DNA of 33,387 bases from an uncultured Spirochaetaceae bacterium (GTDB lineage: Bacteria; Spirochaetota; Spirochaetia; Sphaerochaetales; Sphaerochaetaceae): NCBI GenBank assembly GCA_900321635.1, contig ONWV01000009.1, positions 1-33,387 on the forward strand, in the 5' to 3' direction. The position numbers and the translations under genes are program-made. This document shows positions 7,203 through 20,127 of this stretch, one piece after another. A model generated the notes under the pieces. The model was not told the DNA's origin, searched no databases, and saw only the letters and a list, made by a program, of their open reading frames with translations. Position 1 is the first letter of the stretch, and every line of letters starts with the position of its first letter.

Positions 7203-9290
7203 TCAGACATAGAAAAGAATGTCTGCATAGGTCGGAATCGGCCAGAAGTCTCTTCCGACGATAAGCTCAAGATCATCTGAAACTTTTCTCACATCCTCCA
7301 TCGCAGGAACAATGCAGGCGCGGATAAAATGCGCAAGCTCAGAGCCGCTGTGAGAGGCGCTCTTGTCAATCAGAGACTGTAAAAGCTCGACTCTGTCGGA
7401 CAGAGTATCGTTAAGCTCGCTTATTCTCTCCAGGAGGGAAACCTCTGTTCTGCACCTGAGCGCAGAAACCGCAGCCTTCTTTGAATTGATGGCCTGAGCA
7501 AGGAATGATGAGTAAGAACTTACGGCAGGAATAATCTGCTGGACTATCATATCGCGAAGTGTTACTGCCTCGATACGGACGGTCTTGCTGTAGACTTCAT
7601 TAAGAATCTCATATCTGGAATGCATCTCGGCGGGGCTGAATACTCCGAACTCCGAAAACAGCTCTATGTTCTTCGGTGCAATGAAGGCATCAAGGGCCTC
7701 GGGGGTTGCCTTGAGGTTCAGAAGACCGCGCTTTTTGGCTTCCTTCACCCATTCTTCGGAATAGTTGTTTCCGTTGAAGACTATTCTGCTGTGCTTTCTG
7801 TAGGTATCCCTGATAAGATCGGCCACAGCACTGTCAAAGTCCTTGGCATCCTTGAGAGTCTCATAAAAGCCCTTCAGAACCTTGGCAACAACTGTGTTCA
7901 GAACAATGTTAGGTCCTGAGACGGAGAAAGAAGATCCCAGCATCCTGAACTCGAACTTATTTCCTGTGAATGCAAACGGGGATGTTCTGTTTCTGTCCGT
8001 CGTGTCCTTGGGAATTGACGGAAGAACATGAACTCCAAGTTCCATCTTGGTCTTGGAAGCACCCTTTGCAGTCTTTCCTGCGGCAATGGACTCCATGATT
8101 TCTGTAAGCTCGTCGCCGAGGAAGATGGAGATGATGGCAGGCGGTGCCTCGTTGCCTCCGAGTCTGTTGTCATTGCCTGCGCTGGCCGATGAGCAGCGGA
8201 TAAGATCCTGATAGTCGTCAACAGCCTTGATTACGGCAACCAAAAAAAGAAGGAACTGCACATTGTCTTTGGGGTTCTTTCCCGGCTCAAGCAGGTTCAT
8301 TCCTGTATCGGTTGAGATTGACCAGTTGTTATGCTTTCCGGATCCGTTGATTCCCTTGAAAGGCTTTTCATGAAGCAGACAGGCAAAGCCGTGACGCTCG
8401 GCCACCTTCTTCATTGTCTCCATGGTGATCTGGTTGTGGTCTACCGCAACGTTCGTGGTGGCGAACACAGGGGCAAGCTCATGCTGACACGGGGCAGCCT
8501 CGTTGTGTCTTGTCTTTGCACTGACGCCCAGTTTCCAAAGTTCCTTGTCCAGGTCCTTCATGTACTCGGCAACACGGGTTCTGATGGCTCCGTAGTAGTG
8601 GTCGTTCATCTCCTGGCCCTTGGGGGCACGGGCTCCGATGAGTGTTCTTCCTGTGAAAATCAGATCGCGTCTTTTTGCATAGTCGGCACGGTCGATGAGA
8701 AAGTACTCCTGCTCAGGGCCCACTGTGGTGATTACGCGCTTAACATCGGAGTGTCCGAACAGATGAAGGATTCTCACAGCCTCATCGCTTATGGCCTGCA
8801 TGCTCCTAAGAAGCGGAGTCTTCTTGTCCAGAACCTCACCTGTGTAGGAGCAGAAAACTGTCGGGATGTAAAGTACATCGTCGCGGATGAAGGCGTAGCT
8901 TGTCGGATCCCATGCGGTGTAGCCGCGGGCCTCGAAGGTGGCTCTGAGGCCTCCTGAGGGGAAAGACGATGCGTCGCTTTCTCCCTTGACCAGGGCCTTT
9001 CCGTTGAATTCCAAAATAGCTCTGCCGCCTTCTGCGGGGGTCAGAAAGGCATCGTGTTTTTCGGCGGTGATTCCCGTCATGGGCTGGAACCAGTGGGTGA
9101 AATGCGTGCAGCCGTGCTCAAGTGCCCATGTCTTCATGGCATTTGCAACGCTGTTGGCCACAGCAAGGTCAATGTCTTTTCCCTCTGAGACGGTCTTTCT
9201 CAGGGTCTTGTAGATGTCCTTTGGAAGCTTCTCCCTCATGACGGCGTCATTGAAGACCAGACTTCCGAAATAATCAGCCACTGTTTCCAT
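7203..9290 (-). CDS. glnN: Glutamine synthetase type III
   Basis: ATP-dependent amidation of glutamate to glutamine in the cytoplasm; a dodecameric GSIII of 695 residues, close to the usual 700-730. Typical GSIII blocks are FPSGGLRATFEARGYTAWDP, NEAAPCQHELAP, the GINGSGKHNNWS ATP/metal segment, and GNDNRLGGNEAPP. The frame opens with TTG 9296, but ATG 9290 is preferred: GGGG lies six bases before it. It is transcribed away from the pyrimidine operon. Because the GlnA-like protein at 9440 looks catalytically impaired, this is the only convincing glutamine synthetase in the window. Confidence 0.96.
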   Translation of the reverse strand: METVADYFGSLVFNDAVMREKLPKDIYKTLRKTVSEGKDIDLAVANSVANAMKTWALEHGCTHFTHWFQPMTGITAEKHDAFLTPAEGGRAILEFNGKALVKGESDASSFPSGGLRATFEARGYTAWDPTSYAFIRDDVLYIPTVFCSYTGEVLDKKTPLLRSMQAISDEAVRILHLFGHSDVKRVITTVGPEQEYFLIDRADYAKRRDLIFTGRTLIGARAPKGQEMNDHYYGAIRTRVAEYMKDLDKELWKLGVSAKTRHNEAAPCQHELAPVFATTNVAVDHNQITMETMKKVAERHGFACLLHEKPFKGINGSGKHNNWSISTDTGMNLLEPGKNPKDNVQFLLFLVAVIKAVDDYQDLIRCSSASAGNDNRLGGNEAPPAIISIFLGDELTEIMESIAAGKTAKGASKTKMELGVHVLPSIPKDTTDRNRTSPFAFTGNKFEFRMLGSSFSVSGPNIVLNTVVAKVLKGFYETLKDAKDFDSAVADLIRDTYRKHSRIVFNGNNYSEEWVKEAKKRGLLNLKATPEALDAFIAPKNIELFSEFGVFSPAEMHSRYEILNEVYSKTVRIEAVTLRDMIVQQIIPAVSSYSSFLAQAINSKKAAVSALRCRTEVSLLERISELNDTLSDRVELLQSLIDKSASHSGSELAHFIRACIVPAMEDVRKVSDDLELIVGRDFWPIPTYADILFYV

Positions 9291-9439
9291 TTGCAACCCC
9301 GTGCCTTTTCTGTGTATAGTTATGCAAAACTTCTACTTTATTTCAGACAAAGGGTCAACTTCTTTACCTGAAAAACCTAGACATAAGTAATAATATTGAG
9401 CACCATTTATATGCATCCATGCGACAACGGAGGTCGGTC
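9291..9439. other. Divergent glnN / pyrimidine operon regulatory region
   Basis: A 149-base AT-rich stretch between two divergent start codons. For the plus strand the best promoter-like sequence is TTTACC (9363-9368), a 19-base gap and TAATAA (9388-9393), which is only moderate. No PyrR-type attenuator stem, terminator or uracil-linked leader was recognised. Confidence 0.4.
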
Positions 9440-10681
9440 ATGACAGAAAAAATCGTCGAGCAGCTGAAAAAGCAGGACGTCAGGTTCGTCAGACTCGCAT
9501 TCTGCGACATCTTCGGACAGCTGAAGAACATCTCCATCGGTTTATCATCCCTTGAAAAGGCAATGGAAAAAGGCGTAGGACTCAACGCCGCCTCAGTCAG
9601 AGGCTTTCTGAACATCGATGATTCGGATCTGCTTCTCTTTCCGGACCCTGAGACTCTGACAATCATCCCCTGGAGACCTTCCGATGCCAAGGTCGCACGT
9701 TTTTTCTGCTCCATCAGGCATTCGGACGGAAGGCCGTTTGAAGGCGATGTGCGCACAATCCTCAAGAACTATGAGAATTCCCTGAAGAAGTCAGGAACAC
9801 AGCTCAGCGCCAGAACCGAATGTGAGTTCTATCTCTTCAAGCAGGATGCCGAGGGAAATCCCACCGACATTCCCATGGACAGGGCCTCCTACTTCGAGGC
9901 ATCTCCGATTGACAGGGGTGAGAATATCAGACGCGAAATCTGCCTAACCATGGACCAGATGGGAATCAACTACATCGCAAGCCATCATGAAAAGGGCCCG
10001 GGACAGAACGAGATCCGCTTCAGCCCCGCCCCTCTTCTTTCTGCCGCAGACCACCTTGTGACTTTCAAGGACATTGTGAAGAACTCAGCTGACAGAATGG
10101 GACTTTTTGCATCATTTTTGCCAAAGCCATTGTTCGGAGAAAACGGATCGGAGCTTGCAATCAGCCTCTGTATTGACAACGCAAAGGCCAAGGACAGAGA
10201 AAGACTCACCCGCCAGATGGTCGGAGGCATCTTAAGACGCATCGTCGAGATGACAATCTTCCTCAACCCCATTGCCAACTCATATGAGAGAATCGGAACC
10301 TTCGAGGCACCGTCTGCGGTGAACTACAGCCTCGGAAACGGAAGCTTCCTTGTTAAGGCACATCCTGAGGCAGCAAGAGTCAAGCTCAGAAGCGCAGATC
10401 CTTCCTGCAATCCTTACCTTGCCTGCCTTCTTCTTTCAGGAGCCGCAATGGAAGGCATCCGCGATGATGTGGATCCTGACAAGTACAACACGGGAAGCGA
10501 ACTTCCTGACACAATGAACGATGCGATAAAGTGCGCGGAGAACTCGTCATTCATAAAGACGATGATTCCCGATGTCCTGTTTGAGAGATTCCTGCAGGCA
10601 AAGCGTGATGACTGGAAGGAGAGCTCGCTTTCGGGCGATCCGATGCTCAAGGCAAAGAACATGGAATTCCCGGTAACCTGA
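9440..10681 (+). CDS. Glutamine synthetase-like protein with altered active site
   Basis: A 413-residue homologue of type I glutamine synthetase, starting at ATG 9440 with GGAGG nine bases upstream. Retained against Salmonella GlnA are the metal ligands E127 and E129, the HHEKGPGQNE segment (E184, E191), R284, E289 and R317. Replaced are catalytic Asp50 (N49), metal ligand His269 (A240), His271 (S242), Arg339 (G301), Arg344 (K306) and Glu357 (K315). Ordinary glutamine synthesis is therefore doubtful. It is the first gene of the pyrimidine operon, 20 bases before pyrBI. It could be a regulatory paralogue, a ligase for another amine, or a glutamine-sensing partner of pyrimidine synthesis; these are conjectures. 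Confidence 0.85.
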   Translation: MTEKIVEQLKKQDVRFVRLAFCDIFGQLKNISIGLSSLEKAMEKGVGLNAASVRGFLNIDDSDLLLFPDPETLTIIPWRPSDAKVARFFCSIRHSDGRPFEGDVRTILKNYENSLKKSGTQLSARTECEFYLFKQDAEGNPTDIPMDRASYFEASPIDRGENIRREICLTMDQMGINYIASHHEKGPGQNEIRFSPAPLLSAADHLVTFKDIVKNSADRMGLFASFLPKPLFGENGSELAISLCIDNAKAKDRERLTRQMVGGILRRIVEMTIFLNPIANSYERIGTFEAPSAVNYSLGNGSFLVKAHPEAARVKLRSADPSCNPYLACLLLSGAAMEGIRDDVDPDKYNTGSELPDTMNDAIKCAENSSFIKTMIPDVLFERFLQAKRDDWKESSLSGDPMLKAKNMEFPVT

Positions 10682-10701
10682 TAAGCGGGAAGGAGGATAT
10701 A

Positions 10702-12282
10702 ATGAACAGCTTCAAAGGAAGATCCCTTTGCGTAATCGACGATTTCTCAAAGCAGGAGAGACTCTATCTCTTCTCCCAGGTCAGAAAACTCAAGAAGGCC
10801 ATCGCCGAGGACGACAGAAAGACAATCGATTCATTCAGAATCAATGATTCGGATTTCGGAATCTATGAAGTGTTTCTTGAGGACAGCACAAGAACCAAGG
10901 AAAGCTTCAGAAACGCCGCCAATTTCCACCATGCCAAGCTTACGGAAATGAGCGCGGACAACTCCTCCTTCAACAAGGGAGAAAGCTACGCCGACACATT
11001 CAATACACTGTGCGGCTACAACAACAGGATCTTCATCATAAGAAGCAGAGTGGAAGGCGTGTGCCGCTATCTCAGCGAGGAGTGCTGCTCCTATGCAAAG
11101 AGAAACGACCTCCCCTTCACCCCGGCATTCATAAACGCAGGAGACGGAAAGCACGAGCATCCCACTCAGGAGCTTTTGGACGAGTACTCATTTCTGGAAG
11201 ACAACGACTGGAAGACAGACAGCCTTCATATAGCCCTTGTCGGAGACCTTTATCACGGCCGCACAGTCCACAGCAAGGCAGACGGTCTTAAGCTCTGGGA
11301 CAAAGTCAGGGTAGACCTGATTGCTCCTGATGAGCTTTCAATGCCCGAGTCCTATGTGACAAAGATGAAGGAAAACGGGTTTGAGGTCAGAGCCTTCAAG
11401 TCCATCGAGGAATACCTGAAGCAGAGCGACATTGCCACAAAGTGGTACTTCACAAGACCTCAGCTTGAGCGTATGGGAGAAAAAATTCTCGCCAAGGCAG
11501 ATTCTCTCAGAGCTTCCATCACATTCCAGAAGCAGTTCATGGAAAAGCTTCCTCAGGGAACAAAGTTCTACCACCCGCTTCCAAGACACAAGGTCCATCC
11601 GACCATTCCAACATTCCTTGATGACACTCCGCTCAACGGTTGGGAGAAGCAGTCAATCAACGGAATGTACTGCAGAATAGTCCTTCTGGCACTGGTTGCA
11701 GGAAAGATCGGAGACGATTTCAAGCAGGAGAAGAACCCTGAGTCAGCTCAGGAAATCCAGTGGATAATTGAGGCGCAGCCGAAGAGCTCGGCATCAAAGA
11801 AGGAAGAAATCTCAGAGGGAGTCAGACCCATCAGGGATGGAATAGTGATTGACCACATCTGCAAGGGAGATTCACCAGAAGAAATCAGACGCTACATGAT
11901 TCTTATCCGCAAGGTCATGGGCCTTGACGGACTTAAGGGCGGCGAATGGGTCAGCCAGAGTTCAAGCGGCGATTTCAAGGGAATCATCTTCAGACCTGGC
12001 AAATTCAGTCTGGACCACAAGCAGATAAAGCGCCTTGCCGCCGTGGCCCCTGGCTGCACACTGAACATCATCGAAAACGGAAAGGTCGCCAAAAAGTACC
12101 GCACTTCCCTTCCGCCCAGAATCTACAACTTCGATGACCTTATGTGCACCAACGAGGCCTGCATCTCCAACGACAGCCAGAACGAGCACGTACAGGCCAT
12201 GTTCATCAAGACACTCGACAACAGGTTCACCTGCGCATACTGCGGCAGAGTCCATACATTCAAAGAGATTTTCAAGCACTGA
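10702..12282 (+). CDS. pyrBI: Aspartate carbamoyltransferase, fused catalytic and regulatory chains
   Basis: Forms N-carbamoyl-aspartate from carbamoyl phosphate and aspartate, the committed pyrimidine step. Residues 1 to about 345 are the PyrB domain, with the phosphate loop STRTK (62-66), HPTQ (153-156), GRTVHS and HPLPRH. Residues about 370-526 are a PyrI domain ending in a zinc site with cysteines 482, 487, 511 and 514; this spacing (5, 24, 3) is identical to E. coli PyrI. Such PyrBI fusions are known from Thermotoga and Treponema. Allosteric nucleotide control is therefore expected in one chain. The ATG is preceded by GGAAGGAGG. It is followed after nine bases by pyrE. Confidence 0.95.
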   Translation: MNSFKGRSLCVIDDFSKQERLYLFSQVRKLKKAIAEDDRKTIDSFRINDSDFGIYEVFLEDSTRTKESFRNAANFHHAKLTEMSADNSSFNKGESYADTFNTLCGYNNRIFIIRSRVEGVCRYLSEECCSYAKRNDLPFTPAFINAGDGKHEHPTQELLDEYSFLEDNDWKTDSLHIALVGDLYHGRTVHSKADGLKLWDKVRVDLIAPDELSMPESYVTKMKENGFEVRAFKSIEEYLKQSDIATKWYFTRPQLERMGEKILAKADSLRASITFQKQFMEKLPQGTKFYHPLPRHKVHPTIPTFLDDTPLNGWEKQSINGMYCRIVLLALVAGKIGDDFKQEKNPESAQEIQWIIEAQPKSSASKKEEISEGVRPIRDGIVIDHICKGDSPEEIRRYMILIRKVMGLDGLKGGEWVSQSSSGDFKGIIFRPGKFSLDHKQIKRLAAVAPGCTLNIIENGKVAKKYRTSLPPRIYNFDDLMCTNEACISNDSQNEHVQAMFIKTLDNRFTCAYCGRVHTFKEIFKH

Positions 12283-12978: not shown

Positions 12979-13841
12979 TGAACTACCTTGAGCTTCTTTC
13001 TTCAAGTGCCAAAAGCGCCGGAAACTGCGCATGCATGGGAATTGATCCAAACTTCTCAGCCCTGCCCTCTGGGGTTTCGGTATCCGAATTCTTCTGCACC
13101 CTCTTTGAGGTGATGGACAAAGCAGGCATAAAAGTTGCGGCAATCAAGCCCAATATCGGTTACTTCTCACGCTTGGACAAGCCTCTTGAGAATTCCTTTG
13201 AAGGATCAAAAGCGTTGGCTTCAATTGTAAAAGCACTTCCTGCGCGTCCTTTCATCCTTGATGCAAAGCGAGGCGACATTGCAACATCATCTGCAAATTA
13301 CGCCTTTGAGGCTTTCTGCAGCTGGGGTGCAGACTGTGTCACAGTCTCACCTTACATGGGATCTGACAGCATAAGTCCTTTTGCAACTGCAATCGGAGAA
13401 AATGCCAAAACCAAAGGTTTTTACATCCTCAACAGGACAAGCAACCCAGGCGGAAAGGACCTTCAGAACCAGATTATGGAAGACGGAAGACCCGTTTACA
13501 TGCATGTGGCTGACCTTATTGCCAAGTGGAACGCCGAGTACGGCAGCGGAATAGGTGCCGTTGTCGGAGCCACGAATCTTAGGGAATTTGAGGATCTTGC
13601 CGCCTTCTATGCGGATAAGAAGGTTCCCCTTCTGATTCCGGGAGTCGGAAGCCAGGGAGGAAGCGCAAGTGATGTAATTTCCATCATGAAGAAGACAGGC
13701 TACCCTCTTGAGCTTTGCAGAATCAATTCTTCATCAGCTCTTTCCCACCCATGGGCAAAGAAGAAGGAAAGCGCCCCTTCGAACTGGAAGCAGGTATGCC
13801 TTGATGCAATCAAGCGCTTTGCAGAGGAGTGTTCACTGTGA
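12978..13841 (+). CDS. pyrF: Orotidine 5'-phosphate decarboxylase
   Basis: Decarboxylates OMP to UMP, the last step of the pathway. It is 287 residues long, the longer PyrF subfamily seen in mycobacteria and some other bacteria. Catalytic motif DAKRGD lies at 95-100, with the substrate loop AAIKPNIGYF upstream and the phosphate-binding LIPGVGSQGG near the C-terminus. The frame is open from 12915, but ATG 12978 is chosen for its GGAGG site and one-base overlap with pyrE. Its stop overlaps the next gene in a GTGA junction. Confidence 0.95.
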   Translation: MNYLELLSSSAKSAGNCACMGIDPNFSALPSGVSVSEFFCTLFEVMDKAGIKVAAIKPNIGYFSRLDKPLENSFEGSKALASIVKALPARPFILDAKRGDIATSSANYAFEAFCSWGADCVTVSPYMGSDSISPFATAIGENAKTKGFYILNRTSNPGGKDLQNQIMEDGRPVYMHVADLIAKWNAEYGSGIGAVVGATNLREFEDLAAFYADKKVPLLIPGVGSQGGSASDVISIMKKTGYPLELCRINSSSALSHPWAKKKESAPSNWKQVCLDAIKRFAEECSL

Positions 13842-15568
13842 GTTTTACAAGAAAACCTTTCCCGATGGGACACAAGGACAAGAGTGTCCATCTGGCCACG
13901 GTCAGCGGAGTGGCATCAACCAAGCCGGATCTTATCAAGTACTTTGATGAGAATGTCACCTCTGTTGAAATCATAACCACAAAGAGCTTTCAGGTCCGCC
14001 CCAATCCTGGCAACCGTGAGCCCGTAATCTGTGAGACAAGCGCGGGCAACTTCGGAAACTCCGTAGGTCTCAGAAACCCGGGAATGGCCATAGCCGTAAG
14101 AGATATCCACAAGCTTAGGGACAAAGGACTCAGAGCCTGGCTCAACGTGTCTGTCTCGGCTGATAATCCTGATGACTTTACCACGCTTGTAAAGGTATTT
14201 GATAGCTTCTCTGATTCTATTGAGCTTAATTTTTCATGCCCTCATGCAAAATCAGGCTATGGTGCATCCATCGGAGTTGATAAAGATATTGCCTCCGACT
14301 ATGTCAAGAAAATCTGCGAATCCTATCCGGAGAGAAAGAGTCTTCTGTTTGTAAAGCTTACTCCCAATGTGGACAACATAGGAGAAATCGCAAAGGCTGT
14401 GATTCTGGCAGGTGCTGACGGAATCAGCGCCATTAACACGGTTGGCCCTGTTGAGCACATAGACCCGGCTTCAGGGTGCTCGATTTTAAACAGCGCAAAA
14501 GGCGGCAAGGGCGGAAAGTCAGGCCTCTGGGTCAGAGACATAGCCCTTAAGGCTGTTTCAGAAATCAGAAAGGCTGTTGGAGATGATGTTCCAATCATAG
14601 GTATGGGAGGAGTCTCTGACGGACCAAGCTGTGCGGATATGATCAAAGCCGGAGCTGACGCCGTAGGAATAGGTTCTGCCCTGGCCCATGTGGGACAGAA
14701 GAACTGGATAGAGTTTTTCAATGAAGTTCAGGACGAGGCTTCCAAGCTTCTTGCCGGAAAGGAAGTGACAATCAGATCCACCTCATACAGCGGCAAGAAA
14801 AGCCTTATGAACTACAGGCCCTTCAAGGTCATCAAGAAGATTCTTCACAGTGAGGACACAGCAATCCTTATTCTGGACGGTGAGATGAAGAACTTTGAGG
14901 CTGGCGAGTTCGTCTTCCTGTGGATTCCAGGAGTCGGTGAAAAGCCGTTCAGCGTGGCAAAGAAGGAACCTCTGACTTTCGTAATCAAAAAGATTGGAGT
15001 ATTCACACAGGCAGTCTTTGACAAAATCAATGAAGGCTCAACAATCTACCTCAGAGGTCCCTACGGAAATGTCGTTCTTCCTGCAAAGGCCAAAAAGGCC
15101 ATAATAATTGCCGGCGGCACAGGAGAGGCAGTGGCACTTCCGCTTGCCCAGAGGCTCAGTGATATGAAAACTCCGATGAGTTTTCTTGTAGGAACAAGTG
15201 TCCCAGGAAACCATGGAATCCTTCAGGAGCCTCTTTCAGAGTTCGGCCCTTACAGATGCATCTCCGATGAGGGAAAACCGGGAAGAGCCTTGGACAGCCT
15301 TGATGAAGTCATATCAGAAGCCCAGGCAGACGGAACGGATCTCAAGGAAATTGCCTTCTACCTGATAGGACCTGAGATTTTCATGAACATCACGGCAAAG
15401 AAGCTTCTGGTAAAGGGAGTTTCTGCCGAAATGACCCTTCTTTCCATGGAAAAGAACACAATGTGCGGCGTAGGTCTTTGCGGCGAATGCTCGTGCGGCG
15501 GAAGAATGACATGCCAGTACGGAACATTCCTTCCATTGGATTTTCTGATCAAGGAGAATGTTCTGTGA
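13838..15568 (+). CDS. Dihydroorotate dehydrogenase, PyrD-PyrK fusion
   Basis: Oxidises dihydroorotate to orotate and passes electrons to NAD+. In most bacteria this class 1B enzyme is two proteins; here both are in one 576-residue chain. Residues 1 to about 310 are the FMN-binding PyrD barrel, with TKSFQVRPNPGNREP, catalytic Cys134 in NFSCPH, and GMGGVSDG. Residues about 325-576 are PyrK-like: KPFSV for FAD (Lys where Arg is usual), IAGGTGEAVALPL for NAD, and a 2Fe-2S cluster at Cys543, 548, 551 and 559. Start GTG 13838 has GGAG eight bases upstream and overlaps pyrF by four bases. An in-frame GTG at 13829 is less likely. Confidence 0.92.
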   Translation: MSFTRKPFPMGHKDKSVHLATVSGVASTKPDLIKYFDENVTSVEIITTKSFQVRPNPGNREPVICETSAGNFGNSVGLRNPGMAIAVRDIHKLRDKGLRAWLNVSVSADNPDDFTTLVKVFDSFSDSIELNFSCPHAKSGYGASIGVDKDIASDYVKKICESYPERKSLLFVKLTPNVDNIGEIAKAVILAGADGISAINTVGPVEHIDPASGCSILNSAKGGKGGKSGLWVRDIALKAVSEIRKAVGDDVPIIGMGGVSDGPSCADMIKAGADAVGIGSALAHVGQKNWIEFFNEVQDEASKLLAGKEVTIRSTSYSGKKSLMNYRPFKVIKKILHSEDTAILILDGEMKNFEAGEFVFLWIPGVGEKPFSVAKKEPLTFVIKKIGVFTQAVFDKINEGSTIYLRGPYGNVVLPAKAKKAIIIAGGTGEAVALPLAQRLSDMKTPMSFLVGTSVPGNHGILQEPLSEFGPYRCISDEGKPGRALDSLDEVISEAQADGTDLKEIAFYLIGPEIFMNITAKKLLVKGVSAEMTLLSMEKNTMCGVGLCGECSCGGRMTCQYGTFLPLDFLIKENVL

Positions 15569-16584
15569 CAGATGCCCATGTCCATTTCAGAGACTGGAAC
15601 CAAAGCACAAAAGAGACTGTCCTTCACGGAATGCTCACGGGAGTAAGAGCGGGCTTTGATACCTTCTTTGACATGCCCAACTGCAATCCCCCTGTCACAG
15701 ACAGGGAGACTGCGCTCAGGCGGCTGGAACTTGGAAAGCAGGCTGAAGCGGAGCTTAAGAAACAGGGCTTTGATGTTCATTATCATCTCTATCTTGGACT
15801 GACTTCTGATGAAAAGCAGATTGCCGACATGGTCAGTGTCTACAATGACCTTTTCCCCAAAGTCTGCGGCATGAAGATGTTCGCATCCCAGTCTACAGGC
15901 AACATGGGAATAATCGGAAAGGAAAACCAGATGGCAGTCTATAAGGCCCTTTCTGAAAACAATTACCGCGGTGTCATTGCCGTTCACTGTGAAAAAGAAG
16001 AGCTGTTCAAACCTGATGCGTCATCTCACAGCATGAAAAGACCTTCTATCAGCGAAGAAGCTTCGGTGCGCGATCAGATAGACTGTGTCGATAAAGCAGG
16101 TTTCAAGGGTACGCTTCACATTGCCCACATCAGCACAAAAGGTGCGCTTGATACAGTAAAAGATGCTCGTTCAAGGGGAATGAGAATAACATGCGGAGCT
16201 ACGCCTCACCACATTCTTCTGAATTCAGACTGTGAGACAGACATTGTGAAGATGAATCCCCCGCTGCGCCCTGAAACAGACCGACTTGCAGTCTGGAATG
16301 CCCTCTTTGACGGGACAATCAACTGGGTGGAAAGCGACCATGCGCCTCACACGCTGGCCGACAAAATGGCCGGAGCCTGCGGGATTCCGGGTTTTGAGGG
16401 AATGCTTTTGGTTATCAGAAAACTCAGGGAAGCCGGCATGAGTGAGGCTAGGCTCAATGAGCTTTTCTGCACCAACGCTCTTGAGGTTTTCGGAATAAAA
16501 GAGAAGACCGCCCCTGTTCCTCAGATTACAGATGAGATGATAGCTCGGGCACGCTCGGCCTACGCTGTCTCTGCCTGGAACTAA
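15565..16584 (+). CDS. pyrC: Dihydroorotase
   Basis: Cyclises carbamoyl-aspartate to dihydroorotate. The 339-residue protein starts almost at the metal site: H5 and H7 in DAHVHFRD, the carboxylated lysine at K104 (GMKMFAS), H141 (AVHCE), H188 (HIAHIS) and D258 (ESDHAPH). The N-terminal beta-sandwich of longer dihydroorotases is missing. The frame is open from 15463 inside pyrDK, but GTG 15565 is chosen for AAGGAG upstream and its GTGA overlap with the previous stop. It is the last gene of the operon and is convergent with the GtrA gene, one base away. Confidence 0.92.
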   Translation: MTDAHVHFRDWNQSTKETVLHGMLTGVRAGFDTFFDMPNCNPPVTDRETALRRLELGKQAEAELKKQGFDVHYHLYLGLTSDEKQIADMVSVYNDLFPKVCGMKMFASQSTGNMGIIGKENQMAVYKALSENNYRGVIAVHCEKEELFKPDASSHSMKRPSISEEASVRDQIDCVDKAGFKGTLHIAHISTKGALDTVKDARSRGMRITCGATPHHILLNSDCETDIVKMNPPLRPETDRLAVWNALFDGTINWVESDHAPHTLADKMAGACGIPGFEGMLLVIRKLREAGMSEARLNELFCTNALEVFGIKEKTAPVPQITDEMIARARSAYAVSAWN

Positions 16585-18548: not shown

Positions 18549-18881
18549 ATGGGAAAGAAAGCCGTTGTATTGTTGCCAAAAGACAGAAAAATCCTCGCAA
18601 CCATGGGAGAAAACATCAAGCTTGCTCGCCTCAGACGTGATCTTTCGGCAGAGCTTGTCGCAGAACGTGCCAGCATCAGCCGCGCAACTCTTTGCAATGT
18701 GGAAAAAGGCTCCCCCTCGGTCTCAATCGGAACCTATGTTGCGGTTCTGCACGCTCTGGGAATGGCCGGTGAGTTTGAAAAGATCGCAGCAGACGACATT
18801 CTGGGCAGGAAACTACAGGACCTGAATCTGGTCTCACACAGAAAACGGGCGACAAAGACTATGAGTGATGAAGATGAGTAA
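18549..18881 (+). CDS. hipB: HipB-like antitoxin, helix-turn-helix
   Basis: A 110-residue DNA-binding protein with an XRE-type helix-turn-helix at about residues 20-70 (IKLARLRRDLSAELVAERASISRATLCNVEKGSPS). In HipBA systems the antitoxin binds and sequesters the HipA kinase and represses the operon. The start is not certain: ATG 18549 lies only ten bases after the -10 and has no Shine-Dalgarno site, and ATG 18603 is an internal alternative. Its stop overlaps the beginning of hipA, as expected for a toxin-antitoxin pair. Confidence 0.88.
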   Translation: MGKKAVVLLPKDRKILATMGENIKLARLRRDLSAELVAERASISRATLCNVEKGSPSVSIGTYVAVLHALGMAGEFEKIAADDILGRKLQDLNLVSHRKRATKTMSDEDE

Positions 18882-20127
18882 GACGATTCTTGTTTATGCC
18901 GATTGGAAAGATCTTTCCTCTCCCACTCTCGTTGGAACTCTTCATTCCGATATTCTTCGCGGCAAAGAAGTTTTTTCCTTTGACTATGATAATCGGTGGC
19001 TTGAAGAACATAGCAGCTCATTTCTGGATCCGGATCTTCAGATGTACGGCGGAAGACAGTATGTACAAGACAACAGGACTCTCTTCGGTGTATTCACCGA
19101 CTGCTGCCCTGACCGCTGGGGTCGGCTTCTGATGAAGCGTCGTGAATCAATCTTAGCAAAAGAAGAAGGAAGAAATCCCAGAACCCTCTTGGAAAGCGAC
19201 TACCTTTTAGGTATTCAGGATTCGGCAAGAATGGGTGCTTTGAGATTCAAGCTTGAAGCAGACGGACCATTTCTTTCCACAGATTCAAACATGCCCATTC
19301 CGGTTTGGACCAGCCTGAGAGAACTTGAACAGGCTGCAGTAAACATTGATGCGGATTCCGGAACAGAAAAAGAAGAACGTGTCTGGCTCAGGCTTCTGGT
19401 TCAGCCCGGATCTTCTCTTGGAGGAGCAAGACCAAAGGCTACAGTCCGTGACACTGATGGAAATCTCTGGATTGCCAAATTCCCTTCACGAAATGATGAA
19501 ATCAATACAGGTGCTTGGGAAATGGTCACTCACAAGCTTGCATCTAGGTGCGGTTTACGTGTACCTGAGGCAAAGTGTGAATCTTACTCTCCTACAGGGA
19601 GCACATTTCTGGTAAAGCGTTTTGACAGAACAGATGGCGGAAAAAGGCTTCATTATCTTTCGGCCATGACAGTCTTAGGAGAATCAGACGGCTCAGGATC
19701 AGAAGAAGGTGTGAGCTATCTGGATATCGCAGGAGCCATACGGCAATATGGTTCCAAAGTAAAAGAAGATCTGCTGGAACTATGGAAAAGAATTGTCTTC
19801 AGCATTGCAGTTACAAATACAGACGACCATCTCAGAAACCACGGTTTTCTTTTCAACAGAAAAGGCATGGAGCTATCGCCTCTTTTCGACGTCAATCCAA
19901 ACCCAGACGGAAGTGCCCTGTCTCTGAATATCAATGATTCTGACAACTCCCTGGACTTTGATCTTGCAATAGACAGCGCCCCCTACTTTGACCTCAAAAA
20001 GGACGATGCCTCAAAAATGGTCAATGACATGAAGTCTCAGATCGCCTCATGGTCCTACATAGCCCAGAGCCTTGGCATTTCACGTGCTGAGATTGGAATG
20101 ATGGAGCGATGCTTCAGGATTTGCTAG
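18874..20127 (+). CDS. hipA: HipA-like serine/threonine kinase toxin
   Basis: A 417-residue HipA kinase. In E. coli HipA phosphorylates glutamyl-tRNA synthetase and induces dormancy; the target here is unknown. The glycine-rich loop GSSLGGARPKA (179-189), with its autophosphorylated serine, ATP lysine K202 (IAKF), catalytic NTDDHLRNHG (315-324) and metal-binding FDVNPN (338-343) are all intact, so it should be active. The frame opens with GTG 18865. ATG 18874 (MSKTILVYADWKDL) fits the family start and overlaps hipB by eight bases; ATG 18868 is also possible. Confidence 0.92.
   Translation: MSKTILVYADWKDLSSPTLVGTLHSDILRGKEVFSFDYDNRWLEEHSSSFLDPDLQMYGGRQYVQDNRTLFGVFTDCCPDRWGRLLMKRRESILAKEEGRNPRTLLESDYLLGIQDSARMGALRFKLEADGPFLSTDSNMPIPVWTSLRELEQAAVNIDADSGTEKEERVWLRLLVQPGSSLGGARPKATVRDTDGNLWIAKFPSRNDEINTGAWEMVTHKLASRCGLRVPEAKCESYSPTGSTFLVKRFDRTDGGKRLHYLSAMTVLGESDGSGSEEGVSYLDIAGAIRQYGSKVKEDLLELWKRIVFSIAVTNTDDHLRNHGFLFNRKGMELSPLFDVNPNPDGSALSLNINDSDNSLDFDLAIDSAPYFDLKKDDASKMVNDMKSQIASWSYIAQSLGISRAEIGMMERCFRIC

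Follow-up and report, generated by a model that had tools for sequence, protein, structure and literature searches.

Lengsin, a class I glutamine synthetase (GS) relative of the vertebrate lens, has been described as re-engineered for a role in that tissue, a non-enzymatic use, and in the GSI of Bacillus subtilis Arg62 is needed for the glutamine lock. GS paralogues often turn into gamma-glutamylamine ligases, which also lose the normal D50, and GlnA3, GlnA4 and PauA are GS-like paralogues without glutamine synthetase activity. In GlnA3 and GlnA4 the metal and phosphate residues are still present, His269 and Arg344 among them (and Glu357 in GlnA4), whereas E327, Y179 and the usual D50 loop are lost (PMC6529630, PMC5403932). 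Meanwhile, glutamine-bound GSI-alpha of Bacillus associates with GlnR and contributes to repression (PMC10799026), so that sensing by the GSI fold is established. The sensor function of the GS fold is thus already known; no account of a bacterial GS degenerate in the way described below was found in the literature searched, which leaned on openly readable papers.

The stretch of DNA analysed (33,387 nt, contig ONWV01000009.1 of an uncultured Spirochaetaceae bacterium; hereafter the window) carries on its forward strand, at positions 9440-10681, an intact open reading frame (ORF) of 413 aa for a degenerate GS homologue, here called pseudo-GS. A GGAGG precedes the ATG at 9440, and an in-frame ATG upstream, at 9419, is the less likely start. 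The protein matches the Pfam domains Gln-synt_N (PF03951, 1.9e-22, 79 bits) and Gln-synt_C (PF00120, 1.1e-63, 216 bits), with scores over the gathering cut-offs of 33 and 24 bits. Its AlphaFold model (pLDDT 89, pTM 0.91) was compared with the PDB by Foldseek, and the best matches are all GSI-alpha structures, from Methanosarcina, Methermicoccus, Listeria, Paenibacillus, Staphylococcus and Bacillus (TM 0.84-0.89, about 35% identity). By both domains and fold, pseudo-GS belongs to the type I glutamine synthetase family. It scores 287 bits against the TIGR00653 equivalog, whose cut-off is 429 bits; however, the relatives with a normal active site that were tested mostly fall short as well (342-393, one 450), and this cut-off was dropped as a sign of inactivity. 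A search for riboswitches with Rfam at the gathering threshold gave no match anywhere in the window.

We searched 139 genomes of the family, of which 95 hold some relative of the pseudo-GS protein; the genomes are metagenome-assembled (MAGs) and incomplete. Eight species carry pseudo-GS, the window's included, all from one genus of uncultured gut spirochaetes with several members from the rumen, and the other seven copies are 67-83% identical to that of the window. They form a monophyletic clade (SH-aLRT 100) nested inside the ANTAR-linked GSI of the same family, so that the residue loss described below happened once. The ANTAR-linked GSI of Clostridia and Spirochaetes are the closest relatives (38-55% identity) and belong to an orthologous lineage, but they have a normal site.

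The window protein was aligned to E. coli GlnA, and residues are numbered as in Salmonella unless given for the window protein. The alignment bore out the residue list of the initial annotation, in which N49, A240, S242, G301, K306 and K315 take the places of D50, H269, H271, R339, R344 and E357, and the metal-site glutamates E127, E129, E184 and E191 are retained (E129, E131, E212 and E220 in Salmonella numbering). One entry was wrongly read as degeneracy, namely S242 for His271, since relatives with a normal site carry Asn (91/103) or Ser (11/103) at this position. The remaining codons lie on the forward strand. N49 (9584-9586), at the place of the Asp50 of ammonium deprotonation, is Asn in all eight clade members and Asp in the 103 other sequences, and A240 (10157-10159), at the place of His269, which serves the n2 metal and glutamate, is Ala, Thr or Ser within the clade. 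K306 (10355-10357; Arg344, ATP phosphates) and K315 (10382-10384; Glu357, n2 metal) are Lys in 8/8, and H269, R344 and E357, like D50, are found in 103/103 normal-site relatives. G301 (10340-10342; Arg339) is variable in the clade (G, E, R, Q or K). Among the n2 ligands only E129 is thus kept, H269 and E357 being replaced in 8/8, whereas the n1 ligands E131, E212 and E220 are kept in every member. Also kept are H210, Y179, G265, R321 and R355, with E or D at position 327, and R359 in 7/8. Glu207 has become Ile or Val in six of the eight and is retained in the two deepest branches (genomes G132 and G128), so that the loss was stepwise.

The normal-site relatives have 104 conserved columns, and all eight clade members preserve 78 of them; those that changed are enriched in catalytic columns (Fisher p=0.023 for columns lost in all eight, p=0.002 for those changed in at least six). 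N50, K344 and K357 are invariant in eight species whose synonymous sites are near saturation, which rules out chance; misalignment or sequencing error was likewise ruled out, because the changes are common to the eight species. Compared with GSI-alpha (Bacillus, Methanosarcina; the TIGR00653 type), therefore, pseudo-GS shares the fold, both domains and the n1 and glutamate-site residues, but the n2 ligands H269 and E357, Arg344 and D50, residues expected of a glutamate-ammonia ligase, are replaced in 8/8. Judged by these residues, pseudo-GS keeps the glutamate and n1-metal half of the site without the n2-metal and phosphoryl-transfer half, and it is very likely to be catalytically dead. The initial annotation, which looked to conservation of the changes across a clade for support, is very probably right that this is not a housekeeping glutamine synthetase.

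Glutamate-binding residues are retained and normal D50 is absent, as in the gamma-glutamylamine ligases, and pseudo-GS might be seen as a repurposed ligase that gamma-glutamylates another acceptor, like GlnA3, GlnA4 or PauA. However, its residue pattern is opposite to that of GlnA3 and GlnA4, since E327 (or D) and Y179 are kept and H269 and R344 are lost, and phosphoryl transfer from ATP would be hard to support without n2 and Arg344. A different ligase is therefore quite unlikely, and so is the dedicated-ligase role proposed in the initial annotation, because ligands of the n2 metal have disappeared together with Arg344, which binds phosphate.

The clade is under strong purifying selection. 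The median pairwise dN/dS is 0.11 for pseudo-GS, 0.09 for GSIII and 0.10 for PyrBI in the same genomes, and 0.07 for the normal-site sister group, ratios that are approximate because synonymous sites are near saturation. Stops and frameshifts are absent from all eight ORFs, and together with the dN/dS of about 0.11 this rules out a pseudogene. GSIII offers these genomes an alternative enzyme, and pseudo-GS might then be a leftover gene, either decaying or retaining weak synthetase activity; however, such a gene would not be expected to show this dN/dS, uninterrupted frames in eight species and replacements (N50, K344, K357) that are fixed and not random, and we consider this explanation very unlikely. 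A second GSI is present in G128. An active GSI alongside pseudo-GS in G127 was set aside as probable contamination, for its contig (locus L116, G127:C33) matches a G135 contig (L149, G135:C87) at 99.4% identity although the species otherwise differ strongly; the MAG G127 itself is probably contaminated.

The distribution of constraint along the protein has also changed. Residues 322-413 (10403-10678, forward strand) are better conserved than any other part within the clade, whereas active relatives conserve them least: identity is 81% there versus 73% for the rest, with the opposite trend in all four active groups, and in a circular-shift test only 1 to 4 of 413 shifts were equally extreme. 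The pN/pS of these residues is the lowest of any region in the clade (0.17) and the highest in the sister genus g11 (0.25). Conversely, the N-terminal domain is relaxed around the active site (71% identity within the clade versus 88% in g11). Synonymous change at residues 322-413 is not lowered in the clade, so that the constraint acts on the protein, and an overlapping DNA or RNA element was ruled out as the cause. The C-terminal quarter has thus taken over from the catalytic part as the more constrained region, and the constraint at that end is newly gained. This shift would suit a scaffold or inhibitor acting by protein contact alone, without ligand sensing, comparable to lengsin, which shares the non-enzymatic use of a class I GS relative but is eukaryotic and lens-specific, and is likened here by description only. 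However, E129, E131, H210, E212, E220, R321 and Y179 are invariant in 8/8, which is unexpected for a useless pocket and makes action by contact alone unlikely.

A full GSIII gene was annotated next door, and this was confirmed. It is encoded divergently at 7203-9296 of the reverse strand (PF12437, PF18318, PF00120), separated from pseudo-GS by an intergenic region at 9297-9439, and a divergent GSIII accompanies pseudo-GS in 8/8 carrier species. The window genome has a second GSIII gene, followed by pyrG (L180, G000:C54:3038-5110). In the normal-site relatives, an ANTAR regulator lies directly downstream in 100 of the 101 loci with enough sequence, pyrG lies within 4.5 kb downstream in 23/69 loci, and a GXGXG glutamate synthase part is found just upstream in many. 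Within the clade, ANTAR still stands downstream of pseudo-GS only in the basal G132; most of the clade lacks it, and it is absent next to the gene in the window. Five clade MAGs (the window genome G000, G129, G130, G133 and G134) yielded no glutamate synthase (GOGAT), and a search of the window genome for canonical PII gave a divergent PII-like protein only; these negatives come from MAGs that are 67-93% complete. The loss of ANTAR from most of the clade, together with the failure to find GOGAT or canonical PII in the genome of the window, leaves pseudo-GS without a known partner, which counts against the regulatory reading given below. As a separate observation, the active orthologues show a GXGXG-GSI-ANTAR-pyrG type of arrangement in Sphaerochaetaceae and Clostridium (L041 7208-11568, L053 7254-12324, L118 5979-9395), possibly a link between nitrogen and CTP, of which no description was found in the literature searched.

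On its other side, pseudo-GS is followed after 20 nt (10682-10701), on the same strand and with no terminator between, by a pyrBI fusion at 10702-12282 (aspartate carbamoyltransferase, catalytic and regulatory; NF009916, above cut-off). The pyr genes run in the order pyrBI-pyrE-pyrF-pyrDK-pyrC and end at 16584; a single ORF at 13829-15568 seems to encode PyrD, the dihydroorotate dehydrogenase, as a fusion with PyrK, its electron-transfer subunit, and the same is seen in relatives, e.g. L136. A gene for a HipA-like kinase with a HipA_C domain lies at 18865-20127. In three species a probable membrane protein of 375 aa, absent in the window, is encoded directly 3' of pseudo-GS (L036 9233-10357, L035 8417-9523).

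The initial annotation placed pseudo-GS at the head of a pyrimidine operon. This is true of the window assembly, but elsewhere the pair is split in every relative spanning the locus: where contigs do so (G134, G133, G127 and G132), a pair of oppositely oriented ABC-exporter genes stands between pseudo-GS and pyrBI. In addition, the first exporter gene is downstream of pseudo-GS in G130 and G128, and the second adjoins pyrBI in G129 and G130. The window lacks the exporter pair at this junction, and a close copy of the exporter is also missing from its genome (best match 34%). It also lacks the leader that precedes pyrBI in 5/6 relatives and that carries a terminator-like hairpin with a run of T, and its pyr genes may therefore now depend on the pseudo-GS promoter. 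In five related species the leaders share a short ACCGG hairpin with T8 behind it, resembling a pyr attenuator (L034 12956-13037; L036 14000-14125). The arrangement of this one species, with pseudo-GS leading the pyr genes, is due to a deletion or an assembly join.

Surveying genomes for glnA-like genes beside pyrB, as the initial annotation suggested, gave the adjacency in the window only, with pyrBI nearby in 0/102 distinct loci outside the clade and the exporter between the two genes in the spanning relatives. The position beside the pyr genes is thus an accident of one species, and conservation indicates no functional link. A specific coupling of nitrogen status to UMP synthesis with PyrBI, as proposed in the initial annotation, could appeal to the 20-nt distance without a terminator and to the active orthologues, which are often followed by the glutamine-using pyrimidine enzyme PyrG. 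However, the exporter pair divides the two genes in all locus-spanning relatives, most of which have their own pyr leader, no other genome examined puts pseudo-GS beside pyrBI, and the degenerate residues are older than the juxtaposition. The synteny of the relatives does not support such a coupling, which is highly improbable.

A sensing role, also raised initially, is the best remaining reading, though synteny does not tie it to pyrimidine synthesis. Residue losses of single origin, purifying selection, the shift of constraint, the pairing with GSIII and the absence of a conserved pyr link are shown here. Taken together, they would make pseudo-GS a regulatory pseudoenzyme that binds glutamate or glutamine, has its origin in a GSI-ANTAR module and probably acts in nitrogen control, a reading to which we assign a probability of about one half. 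Its ancestor would have been a catalytically active GSI-alpha enzyme encoded in one operon with an ANTAR regulator, and catalysis would have been lost once, in a single clade of a genus related to Sphaerochaetaceae, through D50N, H269A/T/S, R344K and E357K. The protein, whose inactivity we infer from its residues, is predicted still to fold and to assemble like GSI as a putative oligomer. Glutamate or glutamine would be bound via the retained half-site (E131, E212, E220, H210, Y179, R321, E327 or D, and R359), Lys357 would occupy the former n2 metal position, and nitrogen status would be passed to a presumed partner by way of the C-terminal part with its new constraint. The B. subtilis Arg62 appears, from the alignment, to be unconserved in the pseudo-GS family, which counts against a sensor.

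The most plausible output of such a regulatory pseudoenzyme would be control of the divergently encoded GSIII. The neighbourhood of the two genes points to this output in particular, which we put forward as a tentative and rather doubtful suggestion. Similarly speculative is a dedicated glutamate/glutamine sensor controlling GSIII, in which Lys357 would replace the n2 metal, in organisms where ANTAR, GOGAT and canonical PII are missing or were not found.

The glutamine synthetase of Bacillus signals, yet the same molecule is an enzyme. A natural GS copy without the chemistry but strongly selected would part sensing from catalysis and would show the region that bears the signal. Meanwhile, G132, in which ANTAR still stands beside a probably dead synthetase, is a useful intermediate, and it suggests that the ANTAR-linked synthetases of Clostridia and Spirochaetes may also sense.
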